Below are positions 1 through 12,129 of a DNA stretch of 64,000 nucleotides, one piece after another (position 1 is the stretch's first letter; each line of letters starts with the position of its first letter). The notes beneath the pieces are model-generated. The model did not search any database and was not told where the DNA came from. It was given only the letters and a program-made list of their open reading frames with translations. Origin of the DNA: Teredinibacter turnerae T7901. Its GTDB lineage: Bacteria > Pseudomonadota > Gammaproteobacteria > Pseudomonadales > Cellvibrionaceae. The translations under genes and the position numbers were made by a program. The stretch spans positions 2,663,125 through 2,727,124 of the forward strand of contig NC_012997.1 in assembly GCF_000023025.1 (NCBI RefSeq), in the 5' to 3' direction.

Positions 1-680
1 TTCACCTTGCCAATTGAACGCCTTAATAGCTTCGCTAGGTCAGAGCCTACGGCAATGGCATTGTTGTCATCCAATGATGAAATAGGGTCGTCTATATAAA
101 AATACTTCACCCAACTGTAGGCTTCTGACCCATCTATAACCAGTTCACAAATCGCCAGAAACACACACCAGATAAATATATTTTCCTCACCGCGCGAAAT
201 CTTTATGTTGTCTTGCACGATCGTCTCTGGCTCTTCGGAATCTGGACGAAAGCGCGGGTTCTTTACCAACTTGCTGAAAGTGACATTCCAGTTGTTATAA
301 TCAATCTTAAAATCGAAATTACTATAGCGCTTCAGGTAGTCAAAAATCTTTTCTTCAAGGGATAGCTCTTTGAAGCCTTCAAAAAACTTGGAGTCTGAAT
401 TGATCTGCAACACCCTGTTCGCATCGCCCACAAGGTCGTTATCCCAATGAAACAAATCTTCGGTAAACGCATTGAAATAAAGAGTATCTCTGTCTTGCCC
501 TCGCTTACGTTTTCCTGCTTCCTTAAACTCCATCGATAAGCGAGTCTTTCCTGTGCCGTTATAGGCATACAGCTGCACGAAATCGACGCCACCATTATCA
601 TTTTGACGCAAATCGTCTCTTATTCGCGTAGCGACATTTCGAAGAGTTTTGTAATTGTATACTTTTGGCTTATCACTCAT
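1..680 (-). CDS. prrC: PrrC-type anticodon nuclease, N-terminal ATPase part (runs off left edge)
   Basis: About 226 residues are visible and no stop codon occurs before the edge. PrrC is a latent tRNA-Lys anticodon nuclease kept silent by the type I R-M complex and released when phage disables restriction. The visible part is the ABC-like NTPase: a P-loop AYNGTGKTRLS near residue 42, a conserved block YFNAFTEDLFHWDNDL near 68-83, an ABC signature-like stretch ISRGEENIFIW near 160, and a Walker B/D-loop stretch YIDDPISSLDDNN near 200. From memory these blocks agree closely with E. coli PrrC. The nuclease C-terminus is outside the window, so activity cannot be judged. The ATG shares one base with the hsdS stop (TAATG), which implies translational coupling to the restriction operon. 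Confidence 0.85.
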   Translation of the reverse strand, partial: MSDKPKVYNYKTLRNVATRIRDDLRQNDNGGVDFVQLYAYNGTGKTRLSMEFKEAGKRKRGQDRDTLYFNAFTEDLFHWDNDLVGDANRVLQINSDSKFFEGFKELSLEEKIFDYLKRYSNFDFKIDYNNWNVTFSKLVKNPRFRPDSEEPETIVQDNIKISRGEENIFIWCVFLAICELVIDGSEAYSWVKYFYIDDPISSLDDNNAIAVGSDLAKLLRRSIGKV

Positions 681-1954
681 TAAACAACATCATCCATGAC
701 AGGGAAGAGCTTTTGCACTAGGCCATTTTTATGGGCAATGAGACTAGAAATCTTCTCGCTTTGCTCAGAAATCATTTCTTCGACAGAGAAAATACAGTCT
801 ACGATTTTGCGTTGCTCACCGATTTCAGGAAAGGAAATAGGAAACTTAGATACATCAGAACCCGTTATATTAGGGTCTTTCCGACTACTGCTAGCTATTT
901 TTCGCCATAATCCAACTTTAGCGTTTAACCACACGAGCACATATTCTGGAGCAACCTGCTTGCGATCAACATTCAATACAGAGAGTGCTTGATTAGTAGC
1001 TGCAGGGACCTTCAGCATTCCAGTGCGGCCGATTTGTTTGAAGCCCCCATACATTGCGACCAATACTGAGCCAATGGCGTTGATTTTAACCTTTGCCTTA
1101 GACGTTACGCACTCTTCGGTAACAGTAATGAATGAGTTATTTAAATCTGTTGTCTTTACCCAAGGTATGTCACCACCTTCATAAAATTCTGGATTGGATC
1201 TCGAAGGGGTAGACCCTGATCTTATAGTAGCGACGTCGCTTAACGCACATTTTTCCCACTCCCCAGCCTTTCGAAACTCAGGAAATCGCATCTTAGGTAC
1301 TTTTTTACCTTCGATGGGAAAGAGTTGTTGCATCAGGCCTTTTTTATGGGCTTTGAGGGCATCGAGTTTTTGGGTGTGCAGCGTGATCAGCTCATCAATG
1401 GAGGTAAGGCAATCGGCGATTTTTTGTTGCTCTTCAATCGTTGGAACCAGTATATCTACATCTTTAAAGAATTCTTTAACACTTACATTTAGCAATCCAT
1501 GGGCTCTGCCACCCTCTTGAGCAATACTCTCAATTTGTTGGTTTAGCATCCCTGCTTCAAAATATTGCTCATAAAACTCATTACAGAAGCCTCTGTTGGC
1601 CCGAAAGCATATGTAAAGAGTTGATACGACGCCTTTCTCATATAGTTTTAAAGGTTTTATTGCTCCCATTGGATAACCTTGGGAGTAACTTTTGTTATAA
1701 GCGAAATCGCCTTTGTGCATAAGGTAGTAGCCAGCTAAATCTTTAGCTGCCACTTTCTTATTGAAGTAATCCAACTGACTGACCAAACCCTGTTGCGCTG
1801 ATATGGTCAGCGCGTTTTGATTGTTTTCTGTGTTTTTATTGGTAACTCTTTTAAAACCATCTCCAATTGGCTTGCGTTCCCAACCACCTTCATTTTCAAA
1901 TTCAGGAAACCGAAACTCTGGAACCAAACTTTTATTTTGCTTACTCATACGCAT
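680..1954 (-). CDS. hsdS: Type I restriction-modification specificity subunit HsdS
   Basis: HsdS sets the DNA target of the type I R-M complex. The 424-residue protein has the usual two-repeat layout: a target recognition domain (about 10-150), a conserved helix (EEQQKIADCLTSIDELI, about 170-190, followed by a helix ending KKGLMQQLFP), a second recognition domain (about 230-370, with the typical GEWEKCALSDVATIRSGSTP entry), and a second conserved helix ending NGLVQKLFP. The two recognition domains differ, which suggests an asymmetric bipartite site. Its start overlaps the end of hsdR by 14 bases, and its stop overlaps the prrC start. The start could be MRM or the second ATG two codons later. 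No HsdM is seen in the window; it probably lies beyond the left edge. Confidence 0.93.
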   Translation of the reverse strand: MRMSKQNKSLVPEFRFPEFENEGGWERKPIGDGFKRVTNKNTENNQNALTISAQQGLVSQLDYFNKKVAAKDLAGYYLMHKGDFAYNKSYSQGYPMGAIKPLKLYEKGVVSTLYICFRANRGFCNEFYEQYFEAGMLNQQIESIAQEGGRAHGLLNVSVKEFFKDVDILVPTIEEQQKIADCLTSIDELITLHTQKLDALKAHKKGLMQQLFPIEGKKVPKMRFPEFRKAGEWEKCALSDVATIRSGSTPSRSNPEFYEGGDIPWVKTTDLNNSFITVTEECVTSKAKVKINAIGSVLVAMYGGFKQIGRTGMLKVPAATNQALSVLNVDRKQVAPEYVLVWLNAKVGLWRKIASSSRKDPNITGSDVSKFPISFPEIGEQRKIVDCIFSVEEMISEQSEKISSLIAHKNGLVQKLFPVMDDVV

Positions 1955-4900
1955 CCAATCCCGAAATCTCTCGCCCCTCGGCCTGTTTTTGCAGGTAAGG
2001 CACCAAATCTTCCATTAAAGCTAGCTCTGCCACGCGACGCGCTTTCCAACCGAGCTCCAAGGGTGCGAGCAGATCTGTCAGCTGCTCGCCATCAAAGATC
2101 ATGCGATCCAAAATGCCGCCTACAAAAGCTTGCAGCGCTTGAGTTTTGAGCCCGTGCTTTTCTGCTATTTGCGTTAATACCTGCGCGGCTTTCTGCGCTT
2201 TAAAGGATTGGTAGCCTTCGCGGATTTGCTTTTCATTTAGCGCTTCACCTGCCTTCAGGCTATTGATGTAGGCAATAATGTCTTCGCGTTCTTCCATCAG
2301 GTTGGCATTAGCGCTGATCAAGTCGATCAGTTGCTGGCGCGTCATTTTCTGCTTGCCAGTTCTTTGAGTGGACTTGGCAATCAGCCCCATAATGTAGTCG
2401 TAATCGATAATGCTGGAGGCAAACAACACCAAATCAAATTCCAGTTGCTCCACCGCCTCTTCGTTATCGTCACTTTTACCTTGCTTGCGCTTTAGCTCCA
2501 TAGCCGTGTCGAGGTAAATTGCTTTAAAGCCACGCAGGGTATCTGTTGGCAGCTTTTGCTCGATAGTGGCTTTGCTTGCTTCATCCAGATCGGTGTATTG
2601 CTCTAGCTGGGTTTTGAGCTTCTGCACTTCTTTGAAATGGTTGATAAACTCTGCCTTGGCCGTATCGCCCTTTAGGTTGTGCACCTCGGATGGCTCGCAG
2701 GTTAAGCCTTTGGACTCCATAAAGGTTTGTAATTCATCAACCTTTTTCTGGAAAGCTTCAACGACTTTAGGGGCCGGATCGACCAACCAGATTTCACGAG
2801 CTTTATCTTTCGCACCGCCAGAAAACAACTCAATTGCTGCGTTGACTTCGTTTTCCTGATAGCGGAAATCCAGTACGTTGCCCCAAGGCTTGGTGTCGTT
2901 CAGAACACGATTGGTGCGCGAGAAGGCCTGAATAAGGCCGTGATGTTTTAGGTTTTTATCCACATACAGGGTATTGAGGTATTTGGAATCAAAACCTGTT
3001 AACAGCATGTCCACCACGATGGTAACGTCGATTTTGTTTTTACGCGGGTAATCGGCATTGCTGTACTTTTGGTCTTTAATACGCTGCTGCACATCCTGAT
3101 AGTAAAGATCGAATTCGTTAATGGTGTGATTGGTGCCGTATTGCGCATTGTAGTCGGCAATAATCGCCATCAAGGCTGCCTTTTTCTTTTCGGGCTCAAC
3201 CTGGTTGTCGGCACTTTCTTGGGGCAGGTCTTCCTGAAGCTGCTTGATATCCGCTGCATTCTTGTTGCCGTTTACACTGCCAGTGCCGTTACCATCGTTC
3301 TCTTTAGCAATTTGGGCTGGAGGCGAGAATACACAGGCGATATTTAATGGCTCGAAACTATTACCAGCTTTCTCATCTTCCGCCTGCTTTTGTACCTGTA
3401 GCGTTTTAAATAGCTCAAAGTACTCGATGGCGTGATTGATTGATGCTGTCGCTAACACAGCATTAAAGCGGTGCTGATTCGTGGCGCTGTCGTGTTTATC
3501 GAGGATGGCTTTTACCACTGCTTCAGGTGGTGGCAGCTCTTTTTTCTTGGGCTTGGTTTGACCACCTTTGCCATCGTCCTTCCCATAATAGTCAATGTGA
3601 AAGCTCAGTACGTTTTTGTCTTCAATGGCGTGGGTGATGGTATAGGCGTGCAGCTCTTTCTCGAAAATGTCTTCCGTGGTTTTGAATGAGGCCAGGTTGC
3701 CATCGACTTGCTGATAGCTAGAGTTTTCATCAAAAATGGGCGTACCAGTAAAACCAAATAGCTGTGCTTTCGGGAAGAATTCTTTAATAGCCTTATGGTT
3801 TTCACCAAATTGTGAGCGGTGGCATTCGTCAAAGATGAATACCACGCGTTTATCGCGCAGTGGCTCCAAGCGCTCTTTGTAAGTTTGCTTGCCGTTTTTC
3901 TGCTGCGCTTTGTTGCGCTTGCTGTTTTCATCCAGCGCCAAACCGAGCTTTTGAATGGTGGTGACAATCACCTTGTCGGCATAGTCTTCCGATAGCATGC
4001 GGCGCACCAGCGCTTCGGTATTGGTGTTTTGCTCAACACAACCTTCCTGAAACTTATTGAATTCTTCGCGTGTCTGGCGGTCGAGGTCTTTACGATCGAC
4101 CACGAACAGGCACTTTTCAATCTCAGGGTTATCTTTCAGTAGCGTGGAAGCTTTGAACGACGTGAGTGTTTTACCCGAGCCAGTGGTATGCCAGATATAG
4201 CCATTACCACGGTTCTGGTGAATGGCATCTACAATGGCCTTTACGGCATAGATTTGGTAGGGGCGCATAATGAGCATTTTCTGCTCGCTTTGTACCAACA
4301 CCATATAGCGGCTGATCAGCTGACCCAAGGTGCATTTGGCTAGGAAGTCATCAGCAAAGTCGTGCAAATGAGCGATTTTCTTATTGCTCTTGTCAGCGTG
4401 CTGATAAATAGGCAGAAAGCGCTCATCGGCATTAAAGCTGAAGTGCTCTTTGCGGTTATTGGCGAAATAGCGCGTATCGTTACCATTACTGACGATAAAC
4501 AACTGCATGAAGCACAGCAGTGTATTGGTATAGCCGTTACCAGTATCGTTTTTATACTCAACGATTTGTTCCATAGCCCTGCGTGGGCTGATTTGGAGAG
4601 TCTTAAGCTCAATCTGCACCAGTGGCAGACCGTTGATCAGCAGGATGACGTCGTACCGATGGTGGCTGTTATCCGTGTTGATACGCAGCTGGTTAATCAC
4701 TTCAAAGTCGTTCTTGCACCACTCACGGATGTTAACGAGGGTATATTCCAGCGGCGTACCGTCTTCACGGGTGAATTTACCCTTTTCACGTAGTGCCTGA
4801 GAGGCTTGGAAGACATCCGCTGTGATGATCTCATCATGGAGGCGATTGAATTCAGCATCGGACAAGTTGACACGATTTAATGCTTCAAACTTTTTGCGGA

Positions 4901-5006
4901 AGTTCTGCTTAAGGCTATCTTTGTCCCGGATTTCTGGACGAACGCTGTATTTAAGTTCTTCCAGTTTCGAAATTAGTTTCTCTTCTATCTGATGCTCTTT
5001 TGTCAT
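1941..5006 (-). CDS. hsdR: Type I restriction endonuclease subunit HsdR
   Basis: This is the ATP-driven translocase and nuclease subunit of the type I R-M complex. The 1021-residue length is normal for the family. Visible parts are an N-terminal PD-(D/E)XK-type nuclease domain with the VQIELKTLQ motif near residue 133, Walker A HTTGSGKTLTS near 275, a DECH box (FIFDECHRSQFGE) near 392, the GFTGTPIF motif III near 420, a RecA2 region with VDMLLTGFDSKYLNTLYVDK and QAFSRTNR near 690-730, and an alpha-helical C-terminus that would dock HsdM/HsdS. It lies 11 bases after mrr and overlaps hsdS. No frameshift or internal stop is seen, so it looks functional. Confidence 0.96.
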   Translation of the reverse strand: MTKEHQIEEKLISKLEELKYSVRPEIRDKDSLKQNFRKKFEALNRVNLSDAEFNRLHDEIITADVFQASQALREKGKFTREDGTPLEYTLVNIREWCKNDFEVINQLRINTDNSHHRYDVILLINGLPLVQIELKTLQISPRRAMEQIVEYKNDTGNGYTNTLLCFMQLFIVSNGNDTRYFANNRKEHFSFNADERFLPIYQHADKSNKKIAHLHDFADDFLAKCTLGQLISRYMVLVQSEQKMLIMRPYQIYAVKAIVDAIHQNRGNGYIWHTTGSGKTLTSFKASTLLKDNPEIEKCLFVVDRKDLDRQTREEFNKFQEGCVEQNTNTEALVRRMLSEDYADKVIVTTIQKLGLALDENSKRNKAQQKNGKQTYKERLEPLRDKRVVFIFDECHRSQFGENHKAIKEFFPKAQLFGFTGTPIFDENSSYQQVDGNLASFKTTEDIFEKELHAYTITHAIEDKNVLSFHIDYYGKDDGKGGQTKPKKKELPPPEAVVKAILDKHDSATNQHRFNAVLATASINHAIEYFELFKTLQVQKQAEDEKAGNSFEPLNIACVFSPPAQIAKENDGNGTGSVNGNKNAADIKQLQEDLPQESADNQVEPEKKKAALMAIIADYNAQYGTNHTINEFDLYYQDVQQRIKDQKYSNADYPRKNKIDVTIVVDMLLTGFDSKYLNTLYVDKNLKHHGLIQAFSRTNRVLNDTKPWGNVLDFRYQENEVNAAIELFSGGAKDKAREIWLVDPAPKVVEAFQKKVDELQTFMESKGLTCEPSEVHNLKGDTAKAEFINHFKEVQKLKTQLEQYTDLDEASKATIEQKLPTDTLRGFKAIYLDTAMELKRKQGKSDDNEEAVEQLEFDLVLFASSIIDYDYIMGLIAKSTQRTGKQKMTRQQLIDLISANANLMEEREDIIAYINSLKAGEALNEKQIREGYQSFKAQKAAQVLTQIAEKHGLKTQALQAFVGGILDRMIFDGEQLTDLLAPLELGWKARRVAELALMEDLVPYLQKQAEGREISGLDAYE

Positions 5007-5017
5007 TTTTATTCGCT

Positions 5018-5929
5018 TTAGTCTTCGCTGAAGAAGTCTGTATCCAGCGCTTTGATTTCGTAAGTTTCTTTTACCGACACACCTAGGTTATGTTTAATCA
5101 TCAGTGTCGCGAGTTTTGCGCCGTCAATTAAAATAATTTTTTTCTGAATCATGCTCACGTATTCCAGCGCACCTTTACTGAATTTAGACGTGGTAATGAA
5201 GACACCTTTGTGAGCGCGTTGCATATCCAGCGCGCCAGAAAAAGCCTGGATAGCTTCGCGTCCGATGGTGCTATCTTCATAGCGTTTTGCTTGGAGGTAG
5301 ATGGTGTCGAGCCCTAGAGGATCTTCATTGATTAAGCCATCGATGCCGCCGTCTGCGGTGTATTGGGTTGCTTGTCCGGATTCTTTACTCCAGCCACCGT
5401 ATCCCATTGCTTGCATTAGTTCGACCACCAGCTTTTCTAGAAACTGTGGGGATTGCTGTTTAACGGCTCGAAGAACTTCGTCAATAAGCTCTTGCCGAAT
5501 TTCGCTGTAGGCTTCTTCAAGGCGCTCGGTTGGGTCAGTATCTTCAGTGTCGTTGTCATCGACGACGACAGTTTTATTCGCTTTTGGCTTGGCAGTGTGG
5601 AACTCAACGAATTCTGGAAACTGCTTTAAAAAACGAACATCTATGCGCTCGGGTTCTTGTTGAAGCGCAGCTTGGCCTCTATCCGTTATTTGTAATTGGC
5701 TTCGCCCTGGCGCCGTCAATAACCCCGCTTTATTTAGGTAAGTTCGTGCCCAGGCGATACGGTTACGAATAATCGTTTGTTTACCGGAAGGGAGCTTTTC
5801 CGCTTGCTCATCTTCGGTGAGCTGGAAGTGCATACACACCTGTTCGAAAGATTCGTTAAATCGATGTATTTGCCCATCGCTTACGGAGGCCAACAAAGGG
5901 CGCATGCAGCTTTGAAAGTCTGGAATCAT
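5018..5929 (-). CDS. mrr: Mrr-family restriction endonuclease
   Basis: This is a predicted type IV-like endonuclease. The protein has an N-terminal winged-helix Mrr_N domain (about 1-85, with the ITDRGQAAL strand-helix) and a C-terminal PD-(D/E)XK Mrr_cat domain with GGIDGLINEDPLGLDTIYLQAKRY; the catalytic Asp and the Gln-x-Lys are near residues 195-215. E. coli Mrr cuts modified DNA, but the substrate here is unknown. The start MIPDF is chosen because its ATG overlaps the upstream stop as ATGA and has AAGGAAG just before it; an 11-residue upstream extension in frame is possible but less likely. It lies inside the hsd operon, suggesting co-expressed modification-dependent and type I defence. 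Confidence 0.9.
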   Translation of the reverse strand: MIPDFQSCMRPLLASVSDGQIHRFNESFEQVCMHFQLTEDEQAEKLPSGKQTIIRNRIAWARTYLNKAGLLTAPGRSQLQITDRGQAALQQEPERIDVRFLKQFPEFVEFHTAKPKANKTVVVDDNDTEDTDPTERLEEAYSEIRQELIDEVLRAVKQQSPQFLEKLVVELMQAMGYGGWSKESGQATQYTADGGIDGLINEDPLGLDTIYLQAKRYEDSTIGREAIQAFSGALDMQRAHKGVFITTSKFSKGALEYVSMIQKKIILIDGAKLATLMIKHNLGVSVKETYEIKALDTDFFSED

Positions 5930-6108
5930 TTTGCTTCCTTCCGTTTTGCTTGTTCTATCCATTTTTCTACATCAGCACGCTTAAACCGCCAACTCCCCCC
6001 AACCTTGAAGCCAGGCAATTTGCCCTCTGACGCCAGGCGGTAGGCAGTTTTCTTGGCCAGCTTGAGGTAGGCGGCCACCTCGTCGATGGTTAATATTTCA
6101 TCAATCAT
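5926..6108 (-). CDS. Excisionase-like helix-turn-helix DNA-binding protein
   Basis: A 60-residue protein of the HTH_17/excisionase family, with a MerR-like fold: TIDEVAAYLKLAKKTAYRLA near residues 5-24, then a wing GFKVGGSWRFKRADVEKWI. These proteins act as excisionases or small regulators and are common at the head of island-borne defence operons. The start MIDEIL is chosen because the predicted promoter (-10 at 6135-6140) would place the transcription start only about 20 bases upstream, inside a ten-codon N-terminal extension. It is the first gene of the mrr-hsdR-hsdS-prrC operon and overlaps mrr by ATGA. It may autoregulate the operon (inference). Confidence 0.82.
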   Translation of the reverse strand: MIDEILTIDEVAAYLKLAKKTAYRLASEGKLPGFKVGGSWRFKRADVEKWIEQAKRKEAK

Positions 6109-6134
6109 GGTTTGGGTACTCTGTGAATAGTGAG

Positions 6135-6163
6135 ACAATAGGGAAATATTGGGCAGGCCTCAA
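6135..6163 (-). promoter_or_regulatory. Predicted sigma-70 promoter of the restriction operon
   Basis: On the minus strand, TTGAGG (6158-6163) is followed after 17 bases by TATTGT (6135-6140). It lies about 30 bases upstream of the HTH gene start and no other gene intervenes. It was found by eye and not tested. Confidence 0.4.
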
Positions 6164-6349
6164 GGATTTATGTGGTACTTTTGGCGGGGTTTGGGCGGCT
6201 CAGAGTTGATTGGGTGAAGTTTGGGCACGAAATGCGATTTTTTTGCGCCAAAGCGATCAATAATTAGTCTACTCCATTTGCGTTGTTTACGTAGGTGGCG
6301 GCAGCTTAAAACCTTAAAATACACTGGTATTTATGGCGTACTGAAACAA

Positions 6350-6493
6350 ATGATTAAAATTCACTCAACCAAAAAGCTGCTCGCAAAGTTGCCCCTTGAT
6401 GAGAGCGGCATACTGACCAATAAACTGGTAAATGCCGATGCTCGTGCAACTGGTGATTCGCCTTTGGGTAGCTGGCATGCAAACTTGCTTACC
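6350..6493 (+). pseudogene. DUF6933 family protein, N-terminal fragment
   Basis: From the ATG, 48 codons read MIKIHSTKKLLAKLP, then an unrelated stretch, then SPLGSWHANLLT. The start and the LGSWHANLL block are typical of DUF6933 proteins, which are usually much longer. After LLT the family similarity stops abruptly and the frame runs on into unrelated residues until 6559. The gene therefore appears truncated, with its 3' part lost at a junction near 6493. The function of the family is unknown. Confidence 0.5.
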
Positions 6494-6605
6494 AGATTTC
6501 GGCATACGCCCCATCCTGGGGGTAACAGATCTGTACAGGGCACCATGCGCCGGGTTTGATCCCTTCAAACTCCGGCATACACTCCTTCCCTTGAGATAAC
6601 CACAT
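6489..6605 (-). CDS. Small hypothetical ORF (38 aa) or gene fragment
   Basis: An open frame of 38 codons on the minus strand, ending GAYAEIW. An internal ATG at 6578 is preceded by AAGGAG, but at very short spacing. The composition (PEFEGIKPGAWCPVQICYP) looks protein-like and not random, so it may be the end of a lost gene. It abuts the DUF6933 truncation point, which supports a recombination scar. I do not recognise it. Confidence 0.22.
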   Translation of the reverse strand: MWLSQGKECMPEFEGIKPGAWCPVQICYPQDGAYAEIW

Positions 6606-6870
6606 GGCAGGGGATATTGAACATATGCTCTGGTACGACAATGCCTCCCTCAAGGATATTAGTGCTTACCGAACCGGGGCCTGGCTGGCAGACCGAACTT
6701 GCACGGTGAAGGGTGTGAAAGATTGCATCTGGCCGCCTAAGGCGATGTTTGCTTTGTTGGACGAGCTTGCTAAGAATTCCAAGGTTGATAGTAATGATGC
6801 CGATACTGATGTTAAGGCACCTTGTAATGGTGCCGGGAATGTCGTTTCGATTGAAAAATTTCGCAAATAA
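6604..6870 (+). CDS. Hypothetical protein, 88 aa
   Basis: An 88-residue frame starting MAGDIEHMLWYDNASL, with a tryptophan/cysteine-containing middle (DCIWPPKAMFALLDELAK) and an acidic, low-complexity tail ending VVSIEKFRK. No family is recognised and no membrane segment is seen. No convincing ribosome site precedes the ATG. It lies between gene fragments in the island, so it may be a remnant or a real accessory gene. Confidence 0.35.
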   Translation: MAGDIEHMLWYDNASLKDISAYRTGAWLADRTCTVKGVKDCIWPPKAMFALLDELAKNSKVDSNDADTDVKAPCNGAGNVVSIEKFRK

Positions 6871-7179
6871 ATTTTTGTTTTAATCCGCGTTTTAAAAGAG
6901 AGGCGTTTTTGGTTGCTGGGTTTTTGTTCTTTTGAAACAAGGTGTTAGTGGCAAAATTCTGCGCTTTGTTTGTATCAAAACGTGTAAAAATAGAATAAGG
7001 CCAATAGTAAGGGGATTTTTTGAGTTCTTAGTATTGGCCTTATGTGAGGTCTAGCTACTTGCATTTGTGGATTTGGTGGTAGGCGAGCATTATGATCTCG
7101 GAGACTGTATCTCCAAATTTCGTTCTGGAGTGTGTTAACCAAACAAGAATATATGCAACCCAATCTGACGGAGGTCATC
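6871..7179. other. Gene-free island stretch
   Basis: About 310 AT-rich bases. No supportable coding frame, tRNA or strong terminator was seen. The only open frames are short and lack ribosome sites. Confidence 0.4.
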
Positions 7180-7308
7180 ATGCTATTTCTAAAAAGTACT
7201 ACTGGAACAATTGCCTTTACTGACGAAGTAAAATCCGAGTTGTCTGAATACTTTTCACCAGCGGGAGTTCGCCTTGATTCAATCAAAACGCACGACGACT
7301 ATTTATAG
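7180..7308 (+). CDS. Small ORF, 42 aa, with strong ribosome binding site
   Basis: The frame reads MLFLKSTTGTIAFTDEV and ends THDDYL. GGAGG lies 5 bases before the ATG, which is a near-ideal ribosome site and the main reason to call it. It overlaps the next small ORF by 35 bases in another frame. The family is unknown. The short overlapping pair inside a toxin-antitoxin-rich island could be a small two-gene module (inference only). Confidence 0.42.
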   Translation: MLFLKSTTGTIAFTDEVKSELSEYFSPAGVRLDSIKTHDDYL

Positions 7309-7450
7309 ACAAGAAAAAGGCGTCGCCTTATTTTTGGAGTTGCTTTCGCGGGAGACCGAACAATGGCCTGAAGATAATGAGCGGTACTCTCTTTTAAAGC
7401 AGGCCTTGTTTGAACATAGCATCAGGATTAAGCAGCAAAATATTCTTTAA
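7274..7450 (+). CDS. Small ORF, 58 aa, overlapping the previous one
   Basis: The frame opens at a TTG (7274) with GGGAG about 6 bases upstream and runs 58 codons to a TAA at 7448. The product is basic at the N-terminus (IQSKRTTTIYRQEKG), then predicted helical with leucines (VALFLELLSRETEQW, RYSLLKQALFEHSIRIKQQ). No family is recognised. It could be a separate gene coupled to the 42-aa ORF, or the two could be one gene split by a frameshift in the overlap. Confidence 0.35.
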   Translation: MIQSKRTTTIYRQEKGVALFLELLSRETEQWPEDNERYSLLKQALFEHSIRIKQQNIL

Positions 7451-7616
7451 TTTTCTCAAGTTGATGCCGGTAGCCAGCTAAACGTTTTTCTTTGGATTGT
7501 GTGAGGTTTTCGCGGCTCCTGTTTTTGGCCACATAGCCCTGAAGCATGCAAAGCGGTTTATTTTTTCTTTATTTTGGGTGCCCTGAGTACCGAAATGTAG
7601 ATTATTTTAAACCGCC

Positions 7617-7650
7617 GCTAACATTTAAACTAAGTTTAAGGCTAGTTAGC
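7617..7650. repeat. Inverted repeat at the end of the DUF6088 gene
   Basis: Outer arms GCTAAC (7617-7622) and GTTAGC (7645-7650) enclose inner arms TTAAACT (7625-7631) and AGTTTAA (7633-7639) with a one-base loop. It overlaps the stop codon of the minus-strand DUF6088 gene. There is no adjacent T-run, so it may be an mRNA-stabilising or recombination hairpin and not a classic terminator. Confidence 0.4.
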
Positions 7651-8076
7651 AGGCTTATCATTCGTTCCAACATATCGATATCTTATAGACTTACCGTCAA
7701 AAGCCATCTTGCGCGAAACCCGCGCCTTAACTGCAATTACTCGACCAGTAGGAACTTGAGTTGATTCACCGGCATTGTAAGCTTCTGTTTCTATGGTGGG
7801 GACCACTGTCACTTTTAGCTTTTCGGTGAGGGCTTCTTTAGCCAATTCTGGTATGGGCTTTACTGGAATGATCTTGCCTGTGAGCTTGGACCGCTTCTCT
7901 TTTGCGTACAAACCTCGCCCGAACTTAATTAGCTCGCCCGCTAGAACCAATTGGCGCAAAGCGCGGCCAACCTGATCTCTGCCCGAAAGATCCAGAAAAT
8001 CTTTCGGCGTAAATACCGAGCACTTCGACCGGTTGTTCCAGTATTTAACCTTACCTTTCAGTGACTTAGCTGCCAT
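7642..8076 (-). CDS. DUF6088-like winged-helix protein (AbiEi-type antitoxin), apparently orphan
   Basis: A 144-residue protein with an N-terminal winged-helix signature: PKDFLDLSGRDQVGRALRQL, then LVLAGELIKFGRGLYAKEK, the pattern of DUF6088 and AbiEi-like antitoxins. These usually repress and neutralise a nucleotidyltransferase toxin (AbiEii) encoded next to them in type IV toxin-antitoxin loci. The C-terminal half (GRVIAVKARVSRKMAFDGKSI) fits the same family. No nucleotidyltransferase gene follows: downstream to 7450 there is only a hairpin and non-coding sequence. It is therefore an orphan or has lost its partner. Confidence 0.62.
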   Translation of the reverse strand: MAAKSLKGKVKYWNNRSKCSVFTPKDFLDLSGRDQVGRALRQLVLAGELIKFGRGLYAKEKRSKLTGKIIPVKPIPELAKEALTEKLKVTVVPTIETEAYNAGESTQVPTGRVIAVKARVSRKMAFDGKSIRYRYVGTNDKPAN

Positions 8077-8330
8077 GCTTTTTTTAAGGAGAATGAGTGA
8101 ATGGATTGCAGATATACGGCAGTCGCTCGAAGATAATATTTTAGTATCTCCTTTTATTTCAATGTGTTAGAGCGATTAGATTAATTGACTGAGATGACCT
8201 GCCGCGCCTGATAATATCAGCTTATCAATTCTACCAACTACAACCACAGCTGCTAATGGTCGCTTGCCAACTGCCTTCGGATTAGCTAAAGTTCGGTAAG
8301 ACATATTCTTACGCTCTATAGAGGTAACCT

Positions 8331-8582
8331 ATGGCTGACACCATTACATTCAGACCAACCGACGAACAAGGCGGTTTCATTGAAGGGCTTATTAAATCTG
8401 GTGACTTTGCCAGCCAGAGCGAGGTGATACGTGCTGGTATTCGGTTATTGCAAGAGCAACAAGCCTCTTCAAAGCTTGCAGAGCTAAGAAAGCTGCTTCA
8501 AGAAGGAGAAGACAGCCCAGTTGTTGAAAATTGGAGCGCCGATGAATTCATTGAAAGGATGAAGAAAAAGCACGATGCCTGA
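8331..8582 (+). CDS. parD: ParD-type antitoxin (ribbon-helix-helix)
   Basis: An 83-residue type II antitoxin. The N-terminal half is a ribbon-helix-helix with SGDFASQSEVIRAGIRLLQE, the hallmark of the ParD/CC2985 family, and the charged C-terminal tail would wrap the toxin. The ATG is preceded by AGAGG. It overlaps parE by 8 bases, the usual coupling. ParD proteins normally repress their own promoter, which would lie in 8250-8330. It lies within the island and is probably an addiction module. Confidence 0.88.
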   Translation: MADTITFRPTDEQGGFIEGLIKSGDFASQSEVIRAGIRLLQEQQASSKLAELRKLLQEGEDSPVVENWSADEFIERMKKKHDA

Positions 8583-8889
8583 TACACCTTCATTTTTCGT
8601 CCACGAAAAGGCCGATTCTGATCTGGAGGTGATATTTGATTATAGTGTGGAGCGCTTTGGCTTCAGTCGTGCAGTTAACTATGTTCGGGCTATAGAGGCG
8701 ATGTTCAACGAGTTGGCTTCCAATCCCGGCAGTGGAAAATCATTCGACCCACATCGACCTCACTACCTACTCAAGCGGGTTGAATCCCATTTCATCTATT
8801 ACGGTGTTTGCGAAAACGGTATCGAGGTATTCCGGATCTTACATGAGCGAATGCTTCCAAGTCGCCATCTTACCGGGGATTTGTCATAG
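8575..8889 (+). CDS. parE: ParE-type toxin
   Basis: A 104-residue RelE/ParE superfamily toxin. Visible signatures are ADSDLEVIFDYSVERFG near the start, the helix pair AVNYVRAIEAMFNELASNPGSGK, and the C-terminal strands HFIYYGVCENGIEVFRILHERM. ParE toxins poison DNA gyrase. It is coupled to parD by overlap, and full length. Its stop codon is next to an integrase remnant on the other strand. Confidence 0.88.
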   Translation: MPDTPSFFVHEKADSDLEVIFDYSVERFGFSRAVNYVRAIEAMFNELASNPGSGKSFDPHRPHYLLKRVESHFIYYGVCENGIEVFRILHERMLPSRHLTGDLS

Positions 8890-9057
8890 CCTGCTTTTAC
8901 GACCCATTATTTTCCCACTTATCGGCAGCAACTTTCCCTGCACCTTAGAACCATCCAAAAAATCCGCCCGCCACTGCATCATCTCGCGGCGCTGACCCAA
9001 GTCATTCTGACGACTGTCACCGCAGCTATCATTGAACACATGCCAGCTGCCTTCGGG
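8884..9057 (-). pseudogene. Tyrosine recombinase C-terminal remnant (copy A)
   Basis: After an in-frame TAG at 9058-9060, the minus strand stays open for 57 codons and contains GQRREMMQWRADFLDG followed by a short tail with GKLLPI. The QRR-MMQW-ADFLDG pattern is typical of the last residues of tRNA-targeting (P4-type) integrases. No catalytic R..HxxR..Y motifs remain. A second related remnant lies at 10045-10160. Both sit in front of the tRNA-Leu gene, as expected for traces of earlier island insertions. The identification rests on a short motif. Confidence 0.45.
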
Positions 9058-9240
9058 CTAGCGGACAGACACGGGCCTATTTTCCGTAGCTCGCCCGCTT
9101 ACACCACGCTTATCCGACAAGCAAAATACCCTTAAAAATCAACACGTTAAGTTATATCAATCAAATCAGAAAAGAATGTCATGTATTGGGCAATATGCTA
9201 AGATTATACGAAATGCTGGGTTCAATATAGCGAGTCAGAC

Positions 9241-9411
9241 ATGAGAACAGTATCCCTCGAGGCCAAAAAGGCTTATGCGAGAAAAAGCCGATCCAGTAAC
9301 TACCGTGCAAGCCTCAAGCTTGAAGGTTTTACAGTCTCTAGCTCTCCCTCTAAAACGACATCTTCTAAAGCTAAAGTCCTCGCAAAATACGCAAAAACAG
9401 CGAAAGCTTAA
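9241..9411 (+). CDS. yhfG: YhfG-family Fic antitoxin
   Basis: A 56-residue basic protein. The block SSNYRASLKLEGF (residues 18-30) matches the YhfG/FicA family and contains the inhibitory Fic motif (S/T)xxxE(G/N) as S24-LKL-E28-G29. In class I Fic systems this motif, carried by the small partner, plugs the active site and blocks AMP transfer. The tail is rich in Lys, Ala and Ser. It lies 5 bases before the fic gene, so the two form a co-transcribed toxin-antitoxin pair. An AT-rich promoter region lies at 9130-9230. Confidence 0.82.
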   Translation: MRTVSLEAKKAYARKSRSSNYRASLKLEGFTVSSSPSKTTSSKAKVLAKYAKTAKA

Positions 9412-9416
9412 ACTTA

Positions 9417-10010
9417 ATGGTTGATAAGTATGGTACTGGCGATGACCCTGCTTGTTACCCGGGGACATCCGCACTCAGAAATTTATTAAATATTGAAGAT
9501 GAGGACCTACTCGAAGAGGCTGAAAAAGAAATCAGCTCGATCACTGCCTCTGAAATTGAATTCTCTCCCCCTCCATACGATCTGGCTTATCTACAAGAAA
9601 TACACCGCACCCTATTTGCAGATATTTACAGCTGGGCAGGCGCAATAAGAAGTGTTGATATCAGTAAGGGTGAAACACGTTTTTGTTCAGTAATCAGAGT
9701 TGTGCCTGAAGCTGAAAAGCTTTTTTCTCATCTAAACGCCCTCAATAATTTTACCGAACTGAACCGCGAAGACCTGATAAGTAATGTCGCCGAGTTATAT
9801 GGCGATATAAATATGATCCACCCTTTTCGTGACGGCAATGGGCGAGCTCAACGTATTCTTTTTGAGCATATTGTCATTAATACTGGCTTTGAAATCTCCT
9901 GGAACCATGTCGACAGAGAGGAATGGGTTAATGCGAATATCGCCTCTGTTCACTGCGATTACGCGCCCCTTCAAGCGATATTTGATCGTTGTATAGGCGG
10001 CGAAATTTAA
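9417..10010 (+). CDS. fic: Fic-domain AMP-transferase toxin
   Basis: A 197-residue Fic protein that would transfer AMP from ATP onto a target; FicT toxins of this class modify gyrase and topoisomerase IV. The catalytic motif HPFRDGNGRAQRIL is intact near residue 134, with the catalytic His and phosphate-binding DGNGR. The upstream block LAYLQEIHRTLFADIYSWAG is the usual flap/helix region, and the N-terminal YGTGDDPACYPGTSALRN is typical of the YhfG-partnered subfamily. No inhibitory helix was seen in Fic itself, consistent with inhibition by the upstream YhfG. It appears complete. Confidence 0.9.
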   Translation: MVDKYGTGDDPACYPGTSALRNLLNIEDEDLLEEAEKEISSITASEIEFSPPPYDLAYLQEIHRTLFADIYSWAGAIRSVDISKGETRFCSVIRVVPEAEKLFSHLNALNNFTELNREDLISNVAELYGDINMIHPFRDGNGRAQRILFEHIVINTGFEISWNHVDREEWVNANIASVHCDYAPLQAIFDRCIGGEI

Positions 10011-10044
10011 CAGCCTGATTGACAAATAATTTGTTGATTTCACT

Positions 10045-10160
10045 TCACGAGGCTTCTTCTCTTCGCCACTTGATCGGCACCAGCTTTCCTTGCGCCTTTG
10101 AAGCATCAAAAAAAGATCTGCCCACCACTGCATCAGCTCTCGGCGCTCACCCATGTAACG
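10045..10160 (-). pseudogene. Tyrosine recombinase C-terminal remnant (copy B, frameshifted)
   Basis: The minus strand reads YMGERRELMQWWADLF and then shifts frame in a seven-base T-run (10109-10115 as A's on the plus strand) to continue DASKAQGKLVPIKWRREEAS and stop at 10045-10047. Joined, this matches the C-terminal end of P4-type integrases (ERR-LMQWWAD). It resembles copy A at 8884-9057. No upstream catalytic part is present. Confidence 0.5.
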
Positions 10161-10664
10161 GCCTGATCAGAACGCCCTCTCCACGCAATTTTTTCATCAT
10201 TTCTCAGCTGCCAAGGCTCTATCTGGTCCGCTTGAACAGCGCCTTAATGCGGTGATAGGGCTGCAAAATTGAGAATTCTAGCTTCGACCCTGGCCGCTTT
10301 TCCCAATCGTAATAGGCTTCCACGGCAGCCTGGCCACTGCATAAAACCCACGGACTTCAGAAATATTTTAACGGACTACATTGTGAAATTTGTTCCAGGG
10401 GTAGCCTTGTGCCGACGCAAACCTTGGATTACCTTGAGAATCAAAACCATACCATCTCATTTGCCCTAGATCTTTCGTAGTTATATCAACCGATTCCTTA
10501 GCGGGCCAGCAATGGGGCTACAGGTAAAAACTTGCGGATTTATGCAATTCAAACGGAAATCTTGAGCGGTGGCATCCAAATGGTGAGCAGCCGGTGTGCA
10601 ATATGCAATTTAGGGAGATTTTTTAAGATTTTGTGAGGAGATGCTTACTTGTGACGCTAGGAGC

Positions 10665-10818
10665 GGTGGTGCCCGGGGCTGGGCTCAAGCGCAAGCTTGA
10701 GCGGCTGCAGCACTAAAAAGCGAAGCGTATAAAAAAAGCAGACTGGATTAGTCCGGCTTGGTTGCTACGGAGTAAAATTTTGGAGTTATGCTGAAGGTTG
10801 CTAACAGAAGTTGGGGAT
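10665..10818. repeat. Tandem repeat unit 1 with tRNA-Leu 3'-end copy
   Basis: A 154-bp unit that begins GGTGGTGCCCGGGGCTGG, the 3' end and flank of the tRNA-Leu gene with changes, and continues with a stretch including GATTAGTCCGGCTTGGTTGC. The same order recurs in unit 2. The tRNA-derived start marks it as an old attachment-site (att) duplicate. Confidence 0.65.
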
Positions 10819-10961
10819 GGTGGTGCCCGGGGCTGGGCTCAAGCGGCTGCAGCACTAAAAAAAGCGAAGCGTGCAAAAAGAGCAGACGGGATTAGTCCGG
10901 CTTGGTTGCTACGAAGTAACATTTAACCGCCGAGTTGAAGGGACCTAACAAAAGTTGAGGA
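10819..10961. repeat. Tandem repeat unit 2 with tRNA-Leu 3'-end copy
   Basis: A 143-bp unit, similar to unit 1 (10665-10818), starting with the same tRNA-Leu-like sequence. It lacks a roughly 10-base palindromic insert (AAGCTTGA region) present in unit 1. It ends directly where the true tRNA-Leu 3' end begins. Confidence 0.65.
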
Positions 10962-10963
10962 GG

Positions 10964-11051
10964 TGGTGCCCGGGGCCGGACTTGAACCGGCACGACCTAA
11001 ACGGTCGGGAGATTTTAAGTCTCCTGTGTCTACCAATTTCACCACCCGGGC
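10964..11051 (-). tRNA. leuZ: tRNA-Leu (anticodon TAA)
   Basis: 88 bases including an encoded CCA. The acceptor GCCCGGG pairs with CCCGGGC before A73; the anticodon stem-loop GAGACTTAAAATCTC gives TAA; a long variable arm is present (CCCGACCGTTTAGGTCG) and the T arm is GCCGGTTCAAGTCCGGC. The order pgsA, tRNA-Cys, tRNA-Leu(TAA) resembles E. coli pgsA-glyW-cysT-leuZ. Its 3' end is the apparent insertion point of the island to its left. Confidence 0.97.
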
Positions 11052-11164
11052 TAGATAAAGCCATTAAAGATTCTGGCTTACGGGTTTGTAAGTTCAGCCC
11101 GTTGGGCTTTCTTTGTTAGCTTGCTTGATTAGCAAGCTAGATCTATCGGAAGTGCTAAAACGAC

Positions 11165-11310
11165 CTTCCGTCGGCAAGAGGCCTACAATGCACGCTGCTT
11201 TTGTAATGGAGGCGCGGGTACGGAATCGTACGGGCCGGCCATCCGGCGGCGTGCGGTCTGCAATGCACGCTGCTTTTATAATGGAGGCGCGGGTCGGAAT
11301 CGAACCGGCG
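11165..11310. repeat. Roughly 75-bp tandem duplication of the tRNA-Cys 3' part and flank
   Basis: CAATGCACGCTGCTTTT starts at both 11186 and 11261, and each copy is followed by TAATGGAGGCGCGGGT, that is the CCA end and 3' acceptor/T-arm of tRNA-Cys. Similarity also extends about 20 bases upstream of each. The copy near the true gene is intact; the other (11206-11238) is a degenerate 3' fragment. Confidence 0.75.
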
Positions 11311-11355
11311 TACACGGAGTTGCAGTCCGCTGCATGACCACTCTGCCACCGCGCC
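11282..11355 (-). tRNA. cysT: tRNA-Cys (anticodon GCA)
   Basis: 74 bases with encoded CCA. The acceptor GGCGCGG pairs with CCGCGCC and is followed by T73 and CCA. The anticodon loop within GCGGACTGCAACTCCG gives GCA, and the T arm GCCGGTTCGATTCCGAC is normal. It lies between pgsA and tRNA-Leu. No tRNA-Gly, which often accompanies this pair, was found between 11356 and 11571. Confidence 0.97.
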
Positions 11356-11571
11356 TCATAAACTTTTACTCTCGATTCGTGTAACGGGGTCTCGGTGTAC
11401 ACCGGTTCGAGCAACCGTCTTATTCCTTCTTTCGACGGGTTTTATCTACTCCTCGTCGTAAGGGACGCGAATTGTATAGGATTCCATTCTGAAATCCTAG
11501 CGCAAAACTAAAATTTCTTTTAATTCAGTAGGTTGGCTACTTTTTAAACGGGACTTTCCAGGTTGGCAGCC

Positions 11572-12129
11572 CTACTCGTGCCCTCTCAGGCTGGGCCAGG
11601 CTGCGCGTAAGTATACGAACATCGACCACAGCGTCAGCATCGCGGCAGCATAAAGGGTGATATATCCCACAACATTGATCCAGTAATGGCCTTTTGGGTC
11701 GACCATCAGCAACACCACAATGGCGATAATCTGCAGTGTGGTTTTAACTTTGCCAACAATAGAGACTGCGACTTTCGCCCGTTTGCCCAACTCGGCCATC
11801 CATTCTCTCAATGCGGAAATCACAATCTCCCGGCAGATGATGACGGTGGCAGGCAGGGTGAACCACACGGATGAGTGGCTTTGAATAAGCACCGCTAGTG
11901 CAACCGCGACCATGAGCTTGTCTGCTACGGGGTCCAGGAAAGCACCAAACGGTGTGGTGAGGTTGTATTTGCGTGCAATATATCCGTCCAGCCAGTCGGT
12001 AATACCTGCCAGACCGAACAGCGCTGCGGAGGTAAGAAATCGCCATTCAAACGGGGAGTAGTACACCACCACTAGTAGGGGTATAAATGCGATTCTAACT
12101 AGGGTGAGTTGATTGGCGATATTGAACAT
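11572..12129 (-). CDS. pgsA: CDP-diacylglycerol-glycerol-3-phosphate 3-phosphatidyltransferase
   Basis: An inner-membrane enzyme that makes phosphatidylglycerophosphate, the committed step to phosphatidylglycerol and cardiolipin. The 185-residue length is normal. The CDP-alcohol phosphotransferase motif is intact: DWLDGYIARKYNLTTPFGAF then LDPVADK, near residues 40-67. Several hydrophobic segments fit a polytopic membrane protein. It lies downstream of uvrC in the gacA-uvrC-pgsA-tRNA order common in gammaproteobacteria. Confidence 0.96.
   Translation of the reverse strand: MFNIANQLTLVRIAFIPLLVVVYYSPFEWRFLTSAALFGLAGITDWLDGYIARKYNLTTPFGAFLDPVADKLMVAVALAVLIQSHSSVWFTLPATVIICREIVISALREWMAELGKRAKVAVSIVGKVKTTLQIIAIVVLLMVDPKGHYWINVVGYITLYAAAMLTLWSMFVYLRAAWPSLRGHE

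Follow-up and report, generated by a model that had tools for sequence, protein, structure and literature searches.

The gene order of EcoprrI, hsdM-hsdS-prrC-hsdR, is that of one of the two PrrC lineages distinguished here (M-S-C-R). The subject of this report is an operon of the other order, hsdR-hsdS-prrC-hsdM (R-S-C-M), at the beginning of a 64,000-nucleotide stretch of the Teredinibacter turnerae T7901 genome (C1:2663125-2727124 of a single contig of 5,193,164 bases; "the window" hereafter), in which a helix-turn-helix (HTH) leader gene and an mrr gene precede a type I restriction-modification (R-M) system and its anticodon nuclease. E. coli PrrC is a latent anticodon nuclease residing in a type IC locus and displays ATP-binding cassette (ABC) motifs and a catalytic triad, Arg-X3-Glu...His (R320/E324/H356); PrrCs are 341-416 residues long and lack a zinc-hook insert, and RloCs reach 658-897 residues (PMC3874165, PMC2610378). 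PrrC170 of Klebsiella quasipneumoniae, encoded in the order HsdR, HsdS, PrrC, HsdM, blocks T1 and T7 and targets tRNA-Lys (PMC11555353), and multi-layer loci combining R-M, PrrC/RloC-like proteins and toxins have been proposed (PMC3710099). Leader regulators of defence islands (RptR; BrxR/CapW) are also in print: RptR is encoded by the first gene of type I R-M islands and represses them, has three direct repeats 58-31 bp before its start codon, and also precedes a pair of non-R-M genes (PMC12255303). BldC recognises direct repeats of 9 bp, AATTXXXX(C), to which it binds in head-to-tail fashion (PMC5859096).

Against this background, the operon itself is of a familiar type with one uncommon addition, mrr, and the interest lies in its exchangeable leader. 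It is probably a PrrC-guarded type I (type IC-like) operon of the R-S-C-M order, with Mrr as its first effector and a BldC-like leader driving it. With the DNA to the left of the window included (L002; L and G are working numbers of loci and genomes), transcription order is leader(HTH)-mrr-hsdR-hsdS-prrC-hsdM, a small gene coming next:

6132..6153, minus strand: 22-bp direct-repeat-like element, presumed operator, 23 bp 5' of the leader ATG (pattern search in family genomes)
5926..6108, minus strand: leader, 60-aa BldC-like/excisionase-like HTH protein (MAD1 model, NCBIfam NF047737)
5018..5929, minus strand: mrr, type IV modification-dependent endonuclease, 303 aa (Mrr_N and Mrr_cat, Pfam)
1941..5006, minus strand: hsdR, type I (type IC-like) restriction subunit, 1021 aa (HSDR_N, SWI2_SNF2, EcoR124_C)
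680..1954, minus strand: hsdS, type I specificity subunit, 424 aa (Methylase_S, 102.5 bits)
1..680, minus strand: prrC, anticodon nuclease, residues 1-226 of 377 in the window (PADLOC PrrC)
L002:17672-18805 (G000:C1:2662671-2663804): entire prrC gene, the remainder lying left of the window
L002:16050-17657, left of the window: hsdM, 535 aa, 14 bp beyond prrC
L002:15707-16030, left of the window: tail gene, 107 aa, 19 bp beyond hsdM

A preliminary description of the window had named five of these genes (HTH, mrr, hsdR, hsdS, prrC), and Pfam and PADLOC scores far above chance bear the names out. The four junctions it gave are exact on the minus strand: ATGA between leader and mrr, 11 bases between mrr and hsdR, a 14-base overlap of hsdR and hsdS, and TAATG between hsdS and prrC. 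The leader start is better placed at the ATG at 6108 than at the listed TTG at 6138, as judged from homologue starts. The lack of hsdM that it had remarked upon was an effect of the window edge, since hsdM is the next gene, just outside; it adjoins prrC and does not lie elsewhere. PrrC belongs to one tight cluster in which hsdR, hsdS and hsdM all adjoin it, as had been supposed. The type I (type IC-like) set is entire: HsdR (1097.6 bits with PADLOC REase_I) has EcoR124_C, GSGKT and DECH, HsdS has Methylase_S, and HsdM has NPPF. The gene overlaps suggest cotranscription from leader to hsdM. A terminator scan gave nothing exceeding shuffled sequences, and the best match of the 107-aa tail protein (0.013) is below the cut-off for assigning a family.

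PrrC, 377 aa long, is inside the length range of its family and matches the PADLOC PrrC model with 450.9 bits, the match covering positions 17-347 of its 372. Its ABC-ATPase motifs are AYNGTGKT at 39, SRGE at 162, IDDPISSLD at 196, and a switch His, H233. The C-terminal part, read to the left of the window, contains the nuclease triad (R301/E305/H338) and no non-nuclease domain. These three residues are conserved in 89, 89, and 88 of 89 aligned proteins, and the eleven columns tested (ABC motifs and triad) are kept in 87-89 of them. A prrC remnant in a relative (L246) might suggest that PrrC has decayed or is unable to cut tRNA; with the 377-aa frame open and every tested catalytic column intact, this is very improbable here. 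A search of the PDB with PrrC returned no match at E 0.001.

The gene order, which the preliminary description had considered odd, is not new. At class level, 12 of 369 genomes have a strong PrrC match (E up to 1e-60), and at phylum level 16 of 398; in the family, 11 of 144 have one above 400 bits. The present genome is included in each of these counts. Beyond the window, 33 PrrC loci were annotated with profiles made from the window's own proteins: 15 read hsdM-hsdS-prrC-hsdR and 17 hsdR-hsdS-prrC-hsdM (a manual count, with some loci ending at contig edges), and L042 is fragmentary. The best 80 loci of a genome-contig scan and 35 viral loci, both sets biased by a query derived from the R-S-C-M lineage, bring the number to 148, and 147 of these have a full PrrC by score (93 R-S-C-M, 28 M-S-C-R, 26 partial or other). 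For a PrrC tree, 90 proteins were picked (those of the 33 loci, of 34 viral ones, of 22 among the 80, and of the window), of which L054, cut by a contig end, fell under the score limit. On the resulting 89-protein tree, with 15 gene orders inferred from incomplete loci, a single change of order suffices (Shimodaira-Hasegawa-like approximate likelihood ratio test, SH-aLRT, 100), where shuffled labels require 28.6 on average; the order therefore marks one of two PrrC lineages. The M-S-C-R members that were aligned (n=7) are 32-39% identical to the window PrrC, and six of these seven rows carry a GDSNKSFSY-like stretch, which we take to be the PrrC box, at a place where the window and R-S-C-M rows read DTPFFHHV-like. 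Two lineages with fixed gene orders provide a frame for asking whether their triggers differ.

PrrC170 is among the closest described systems, with the same gene order and the same prrC slot, and it was cloned with 300 nt 5' of hsdR; in contrast to the present operon, it is described as starting at hsdR, and the accessible text mentions neither mrr nor a BldC-like leader (PMC11555353). The R-S-C-M order is also found on plasmids L204, L254, and L266, with cargo inserted between hsdR and hsdS. The plasmid PrrC closest to that of the window (88%) is carried by conjugative plasmid pNDM-068001 (L203, 7466-14579) together with hsdS, hsdM, and an hsdR in two frames; a Cro/C1-type HTH gene precedes that operon. 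In L224 (G017, 1741-10557), a PrrC-free locus of the same R-M type reading hsdR-BRO-hsdS-BRO-RhuM-hsdM, other cargo is found in the prrC slots.

Mrr displays both domains of its family (Mrr_N, 109 bits; Mrr_cat, 118.7 bits) and the catalytic D...QxK, with G-x-D at 195 and Q-x-K at 213; its homologues in L068-L070 start with MIPDFQ. Its place ahead of hsdR, pointed out in the preliminary description, is indeed unusual. Among 99 R-first PrrC loci, 86 have at least 1.2 kb 5' of hsdR (two genomes turned out to be entered twice), and these contain one other full Mrr at the head, in L091. Of the order mrr-hsdR-hsdS-prrC proposed for search in related genomes, the hsdR-hsdS-prrC part is common and the form with a full head mrr is, among these loci, confined to L091; L179 and L204 have different Mrr_cat proteins at the operon head. 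Window and L091 proteins are 84% (HsdM), 80% (HsdR), 69% (PrrC), and 52% (Mrr) identical. On a 42-Mrr tree, the window Mrr groups with Mrrs of family genomes (86% identity to L068) and that of L091 with L076. A shared origin of the two captures is rejected by the approximately unbiased (AU) test (p-AU 6.4e-8, for a pair picked after the loci were seen). Since the two Mrrs are not sisters, the simplest reading of the tree is that Mrr was probably captured twice, independently.

These data bear on whether Mrr has anything to do with its neighbours. It might be a hitch-hiker of a tRNA-Leu/pgsA defence hot spot, co-expressed with PrrC and Hsd and functionally unlinked to them, a possibility that comes somewhat short of an even chance. 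Such a hot spot is indicated by a related mrr near pgsA-like and uvrC-like genes in G053 too (L070, by eye), with no hsd genes in its open reading frame lists. The window Mrr is closest to Mrrs unlinked to PrrC, window profiles finding no hsd-like neighbour in L068. The rarity of a full head Mrr points the same way, as do hsd-like neighbours at only 3 of 19 fetched class-level Mrr loci, which speak against a general Mrr-hsd link. On the other side stand the ATGA coupling to the leader and the 11-bp spacing to hsdR, the second capture at the same position in L091 with the tree holding both Mrrs together rejected, and the Mrr_cat proteins heading the PrrC operons of L179 and L204. Moreover, window profiles place 9 of the 12 Mrrs in the clade around the window Mrr near hsd-like genes of varied kinds, counting that of L077, which is beside HsdM-like pieces only. 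The HTH-mrr pair occurs elsewhere in L217, without hsd-like neighbours, and in L079, ahead of an M-S-R operon. A SIR2-like gene was noted within the mrr-hsdM-hsdS-hsdR operon of L076 (12965-14011).

The leader was initially termed an excisionase-like regulator. Its distribution, predicted fold, and sequence speak rather for a BldC-like leader of R-M and defence operons. It scores 86.3 bits with the MAD1 model, above the cut-off of 80, and its NCBI name already derives from a defence system. When a profile of the leader was compared with the PDB, the only credible relatives were BldC structures 6AMA (E 0.0015) and 6AMK. In a Foldseek search with its predicted model (mean predicted local distance difference test score, pLDDT, 86.1), BldC chains occupy ranks 1-7 (best E 2.9e-3; query TM-score, TMq, 0.69-0.72), followed by RacA, MerR-type proteins, RdfS, and Xis, and no match, BldC included, has an E below 0.001. 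Of the 144 family genomes, 14 carry the leader (E up to 1e-12), at 16 places in all, and every one of these precedes defence genes or their remnants (L246 and L251), with an unassigned 135-aa gene in between in L250. The cassettes behind it comprise several of type I, type IIG, type III with an HKD/Snf2 helicase, a DrmD-like one, type I with a PsyrT-like helicase, Mrr, and PrrC; this annotation is based on PADLOC for 10 proteins from 6 loci, and on window profiles or first-gene similarity for the rest. Beyond the family, leaders above 100 bits head PrrC loci L129, L066, L186, L194, L196, and L199. Eight leaders other than that of the window were scanned with MAD1: four reach its cut-off and four are just under.

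Could the protein nevertheless be a genuine excisionase, acting together with an integrase to move a mobile element in which the operon resides? The TIGR01764 excise model gives 63.6 bits, RdfS and Xis are among the fold matches, and the site is near tRNA-Leu and tRNA-Cys. Yet BldC comes first by both fold and sequence, all 16 leader places head defence operons or remnants, a congener (G006) keeps the leader while its cassette differs, and no integrase was noticed beside the operon, though no systematic integrase search was made; this role is unlikely.

Two further observations concern leader genes. A second leader of the same genome, 58% identical to the first, precedes a type I operon (G000:C1:4323972-4324130; L253, leader at 9407-9631). 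The first gene of L253 is 85% identical to that of L252. The L252 operon has a PsyrT-like helicase, and L253 shows, by eye, a comparable helicase-like frame. The 67-80-aa HTH proteins encoded before other PrrC operons (L035, L037, and L039, by eye; L203, tested) are of another kind, that of L203 being Cro/C1.

BldC of Streptomyces, the closest solved structure to the leader and a direct-repeat binder, is a developmental regulator of many genes, the accessible text mentioning no defence link (PMC5859096). With RptR, the present leader shares a small first-gene regulator, direct repeats, a type I operon behind them, and inserted defence genes. RptR differs in being a helical dimer that reads TAGCTA (PMC12255303), the window leader being predicted as BldC-like, and the range of cassettes behind window-type leaders is wider than type I. 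Membership in the RptR group was rejected, the 201 bp upstream of the window leader containing none of its four published site variants. The MADS system (MAD1-MAD8) was considered on account of the MAD1 score and the presence of methyltransferase and specificity subunits; it was rejected as well, HsdM and HsdS scoring far higher with standard type I models than with mad2/mad5. For the six operon proteins, the 25 PADLOC matches listed per protein include no MADS model besides mad1 and mad2/mad5.

The exchange of cassettes behind a kept leader is seen in G006, which belongs to the same genus and has the same chromosomal site. Upstream region and leader are 89% identical over window positions 5922-6493; the homology ends at the leader stop codon and picks up again about 30 bp inside the tail gene. 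Between the two, the window genome has mrr-hsdR-hsdS-prrC-hsdM and G006 an hsdM-hsdS-hsdR set of a different kind. In this one pair, the cassette has been exchanged at the leader stop codon, with leader and tail kept.

What is kept upstream of the leader includes a putative operator. Comparison of 22 leader upstreams gave a modest excess in a seven-letter word count (7; shuffles: mean 4.5, maximum 6). Those of L217 and L243, in which leader starts are set too far upstream, were not judged. Ten upstreams with a visible common stretch were aligned: it is located about 50-26 bp 5' of the ATG in nine, slightly nearer in L245, and its flanks do not align. The pattern CYCNATWTTYCCNTATTNTCYC, allowing at most one mismatch, has 11 matches in the 144 family genomes and the reversed pattern 3; 9 of the 11 are found 23-26 bp before an intact leader. 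One of the two new matches (G138/L265) precedes a broken leader, in a segment of 245 bp at 72% identity to the window leader region, with an AAA ATPase-like gene following (by eye). The other (G001/L262) is alone, next to the same exonuclease-like gene as is found in the flank of the window operon. Both sites are scars related to the leader. L252 and L253 share another upstream string, TTGTACTTTTTCGACA, and L250 nearly does (by eye). The ten aligned upstreams contain 18 ATT....C half-sites (shuffles: mean 3.9, maximum 12), one of them on the reverse strand, with eight neighbouring pairs spaced 9-10 bp; since these upstreams are related to one another and were selected for carrying the stretch, this count is a hint and not a strict test.

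In the working proposed for the operon, HsdM2S protects the cell's own DNA by methylation and HsdR2M2S cleaves incoming DNA that lacks this mark, as known for the family; PrrC would guard the restriction system, and Mrr would add cleavage of modified DNA. A three-layer defence (unmodified DNA, modified DNA, suicide tRNA cleavage), as put forward in the preliminary description, is a reasonable inference. The leader protein would bind direct repeats of ~9-10 bp just 5' of its own gene and set transcription of the whole operon, probably as an RptR-like repressor. Leader and operator may then form a constant head behind which R-M cassettes are swapped, if the single pair above can be generalised. 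It is an evenly balanced question whether this head is a general exchangeable "socket", into which type I, IIG, III, DISARM-like, Mrr, and PrrC cassettes recombine at the stop codon. If so, an arriving toxic cassette would be controlled at once, and in this genome the Mrr/Hsd/PrrC cassette would cover modified DNA, unmodified DNA, and anti-restriction. The safety of toxic defence operons after transfer is an open question, to which a fixed leader and operator with changing cassettes would be a concrete, testable answer, parallel to RptR in another protein fold. Among the open-access PMC papers listed in literature searches, no title or abstract beginning deals with a BldC-like leader common to several R-M types or with mrr inside a PrrC operon.

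Several results weigh against this scheme. The leader-BldC matches, by fold and by sequence, are weak in E-value, and the exchange is seen in a single genome pair. The CYCNATWTTYCCNTATTNTCYC search documents the rarity of the pattern elsewhere and does not predict leaders, because the pattern was drawn from the same nine, and 7 of the 16 leader places are without it. The window upstream has one ATT....C half-site, most of the ten regions compared having two. The single promoter originally predicted was not recovered: a sigma-70 consensus scan of positions 5900-7000 gave 2 sites against a shuffle mean of 1.4, and no promoter stands out. Finally, the window PrrC lineage diverges from the M-S-C-R lineage just N-terminal of the nuclease triad, and its target and trigger may for this reason differ from those of E. 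coli PrrC.

The surroundings of the operon contain other genes of note. To its right, an AbiEi-like gene, a ParDE pair, and a Fic-domain gene are found at window positions 7642-8889 and 9417-10010, and G006 has AbiEi-like and ParDE genes at the same place. Further along the right flank (10964-12129) are tRNA-Leu, tRNA-Cys, and a CDP-alcohol phosphatidyltransferase gene (pgsA-like). The operon is flanked by repeats 86% alike over ~320 bases (window 10665-10982 and L002 12715-13044), of which more copies are found nearby and in G006. Large polyketide synthase-like genes (by eye) lie to its left (L002 1-10766).

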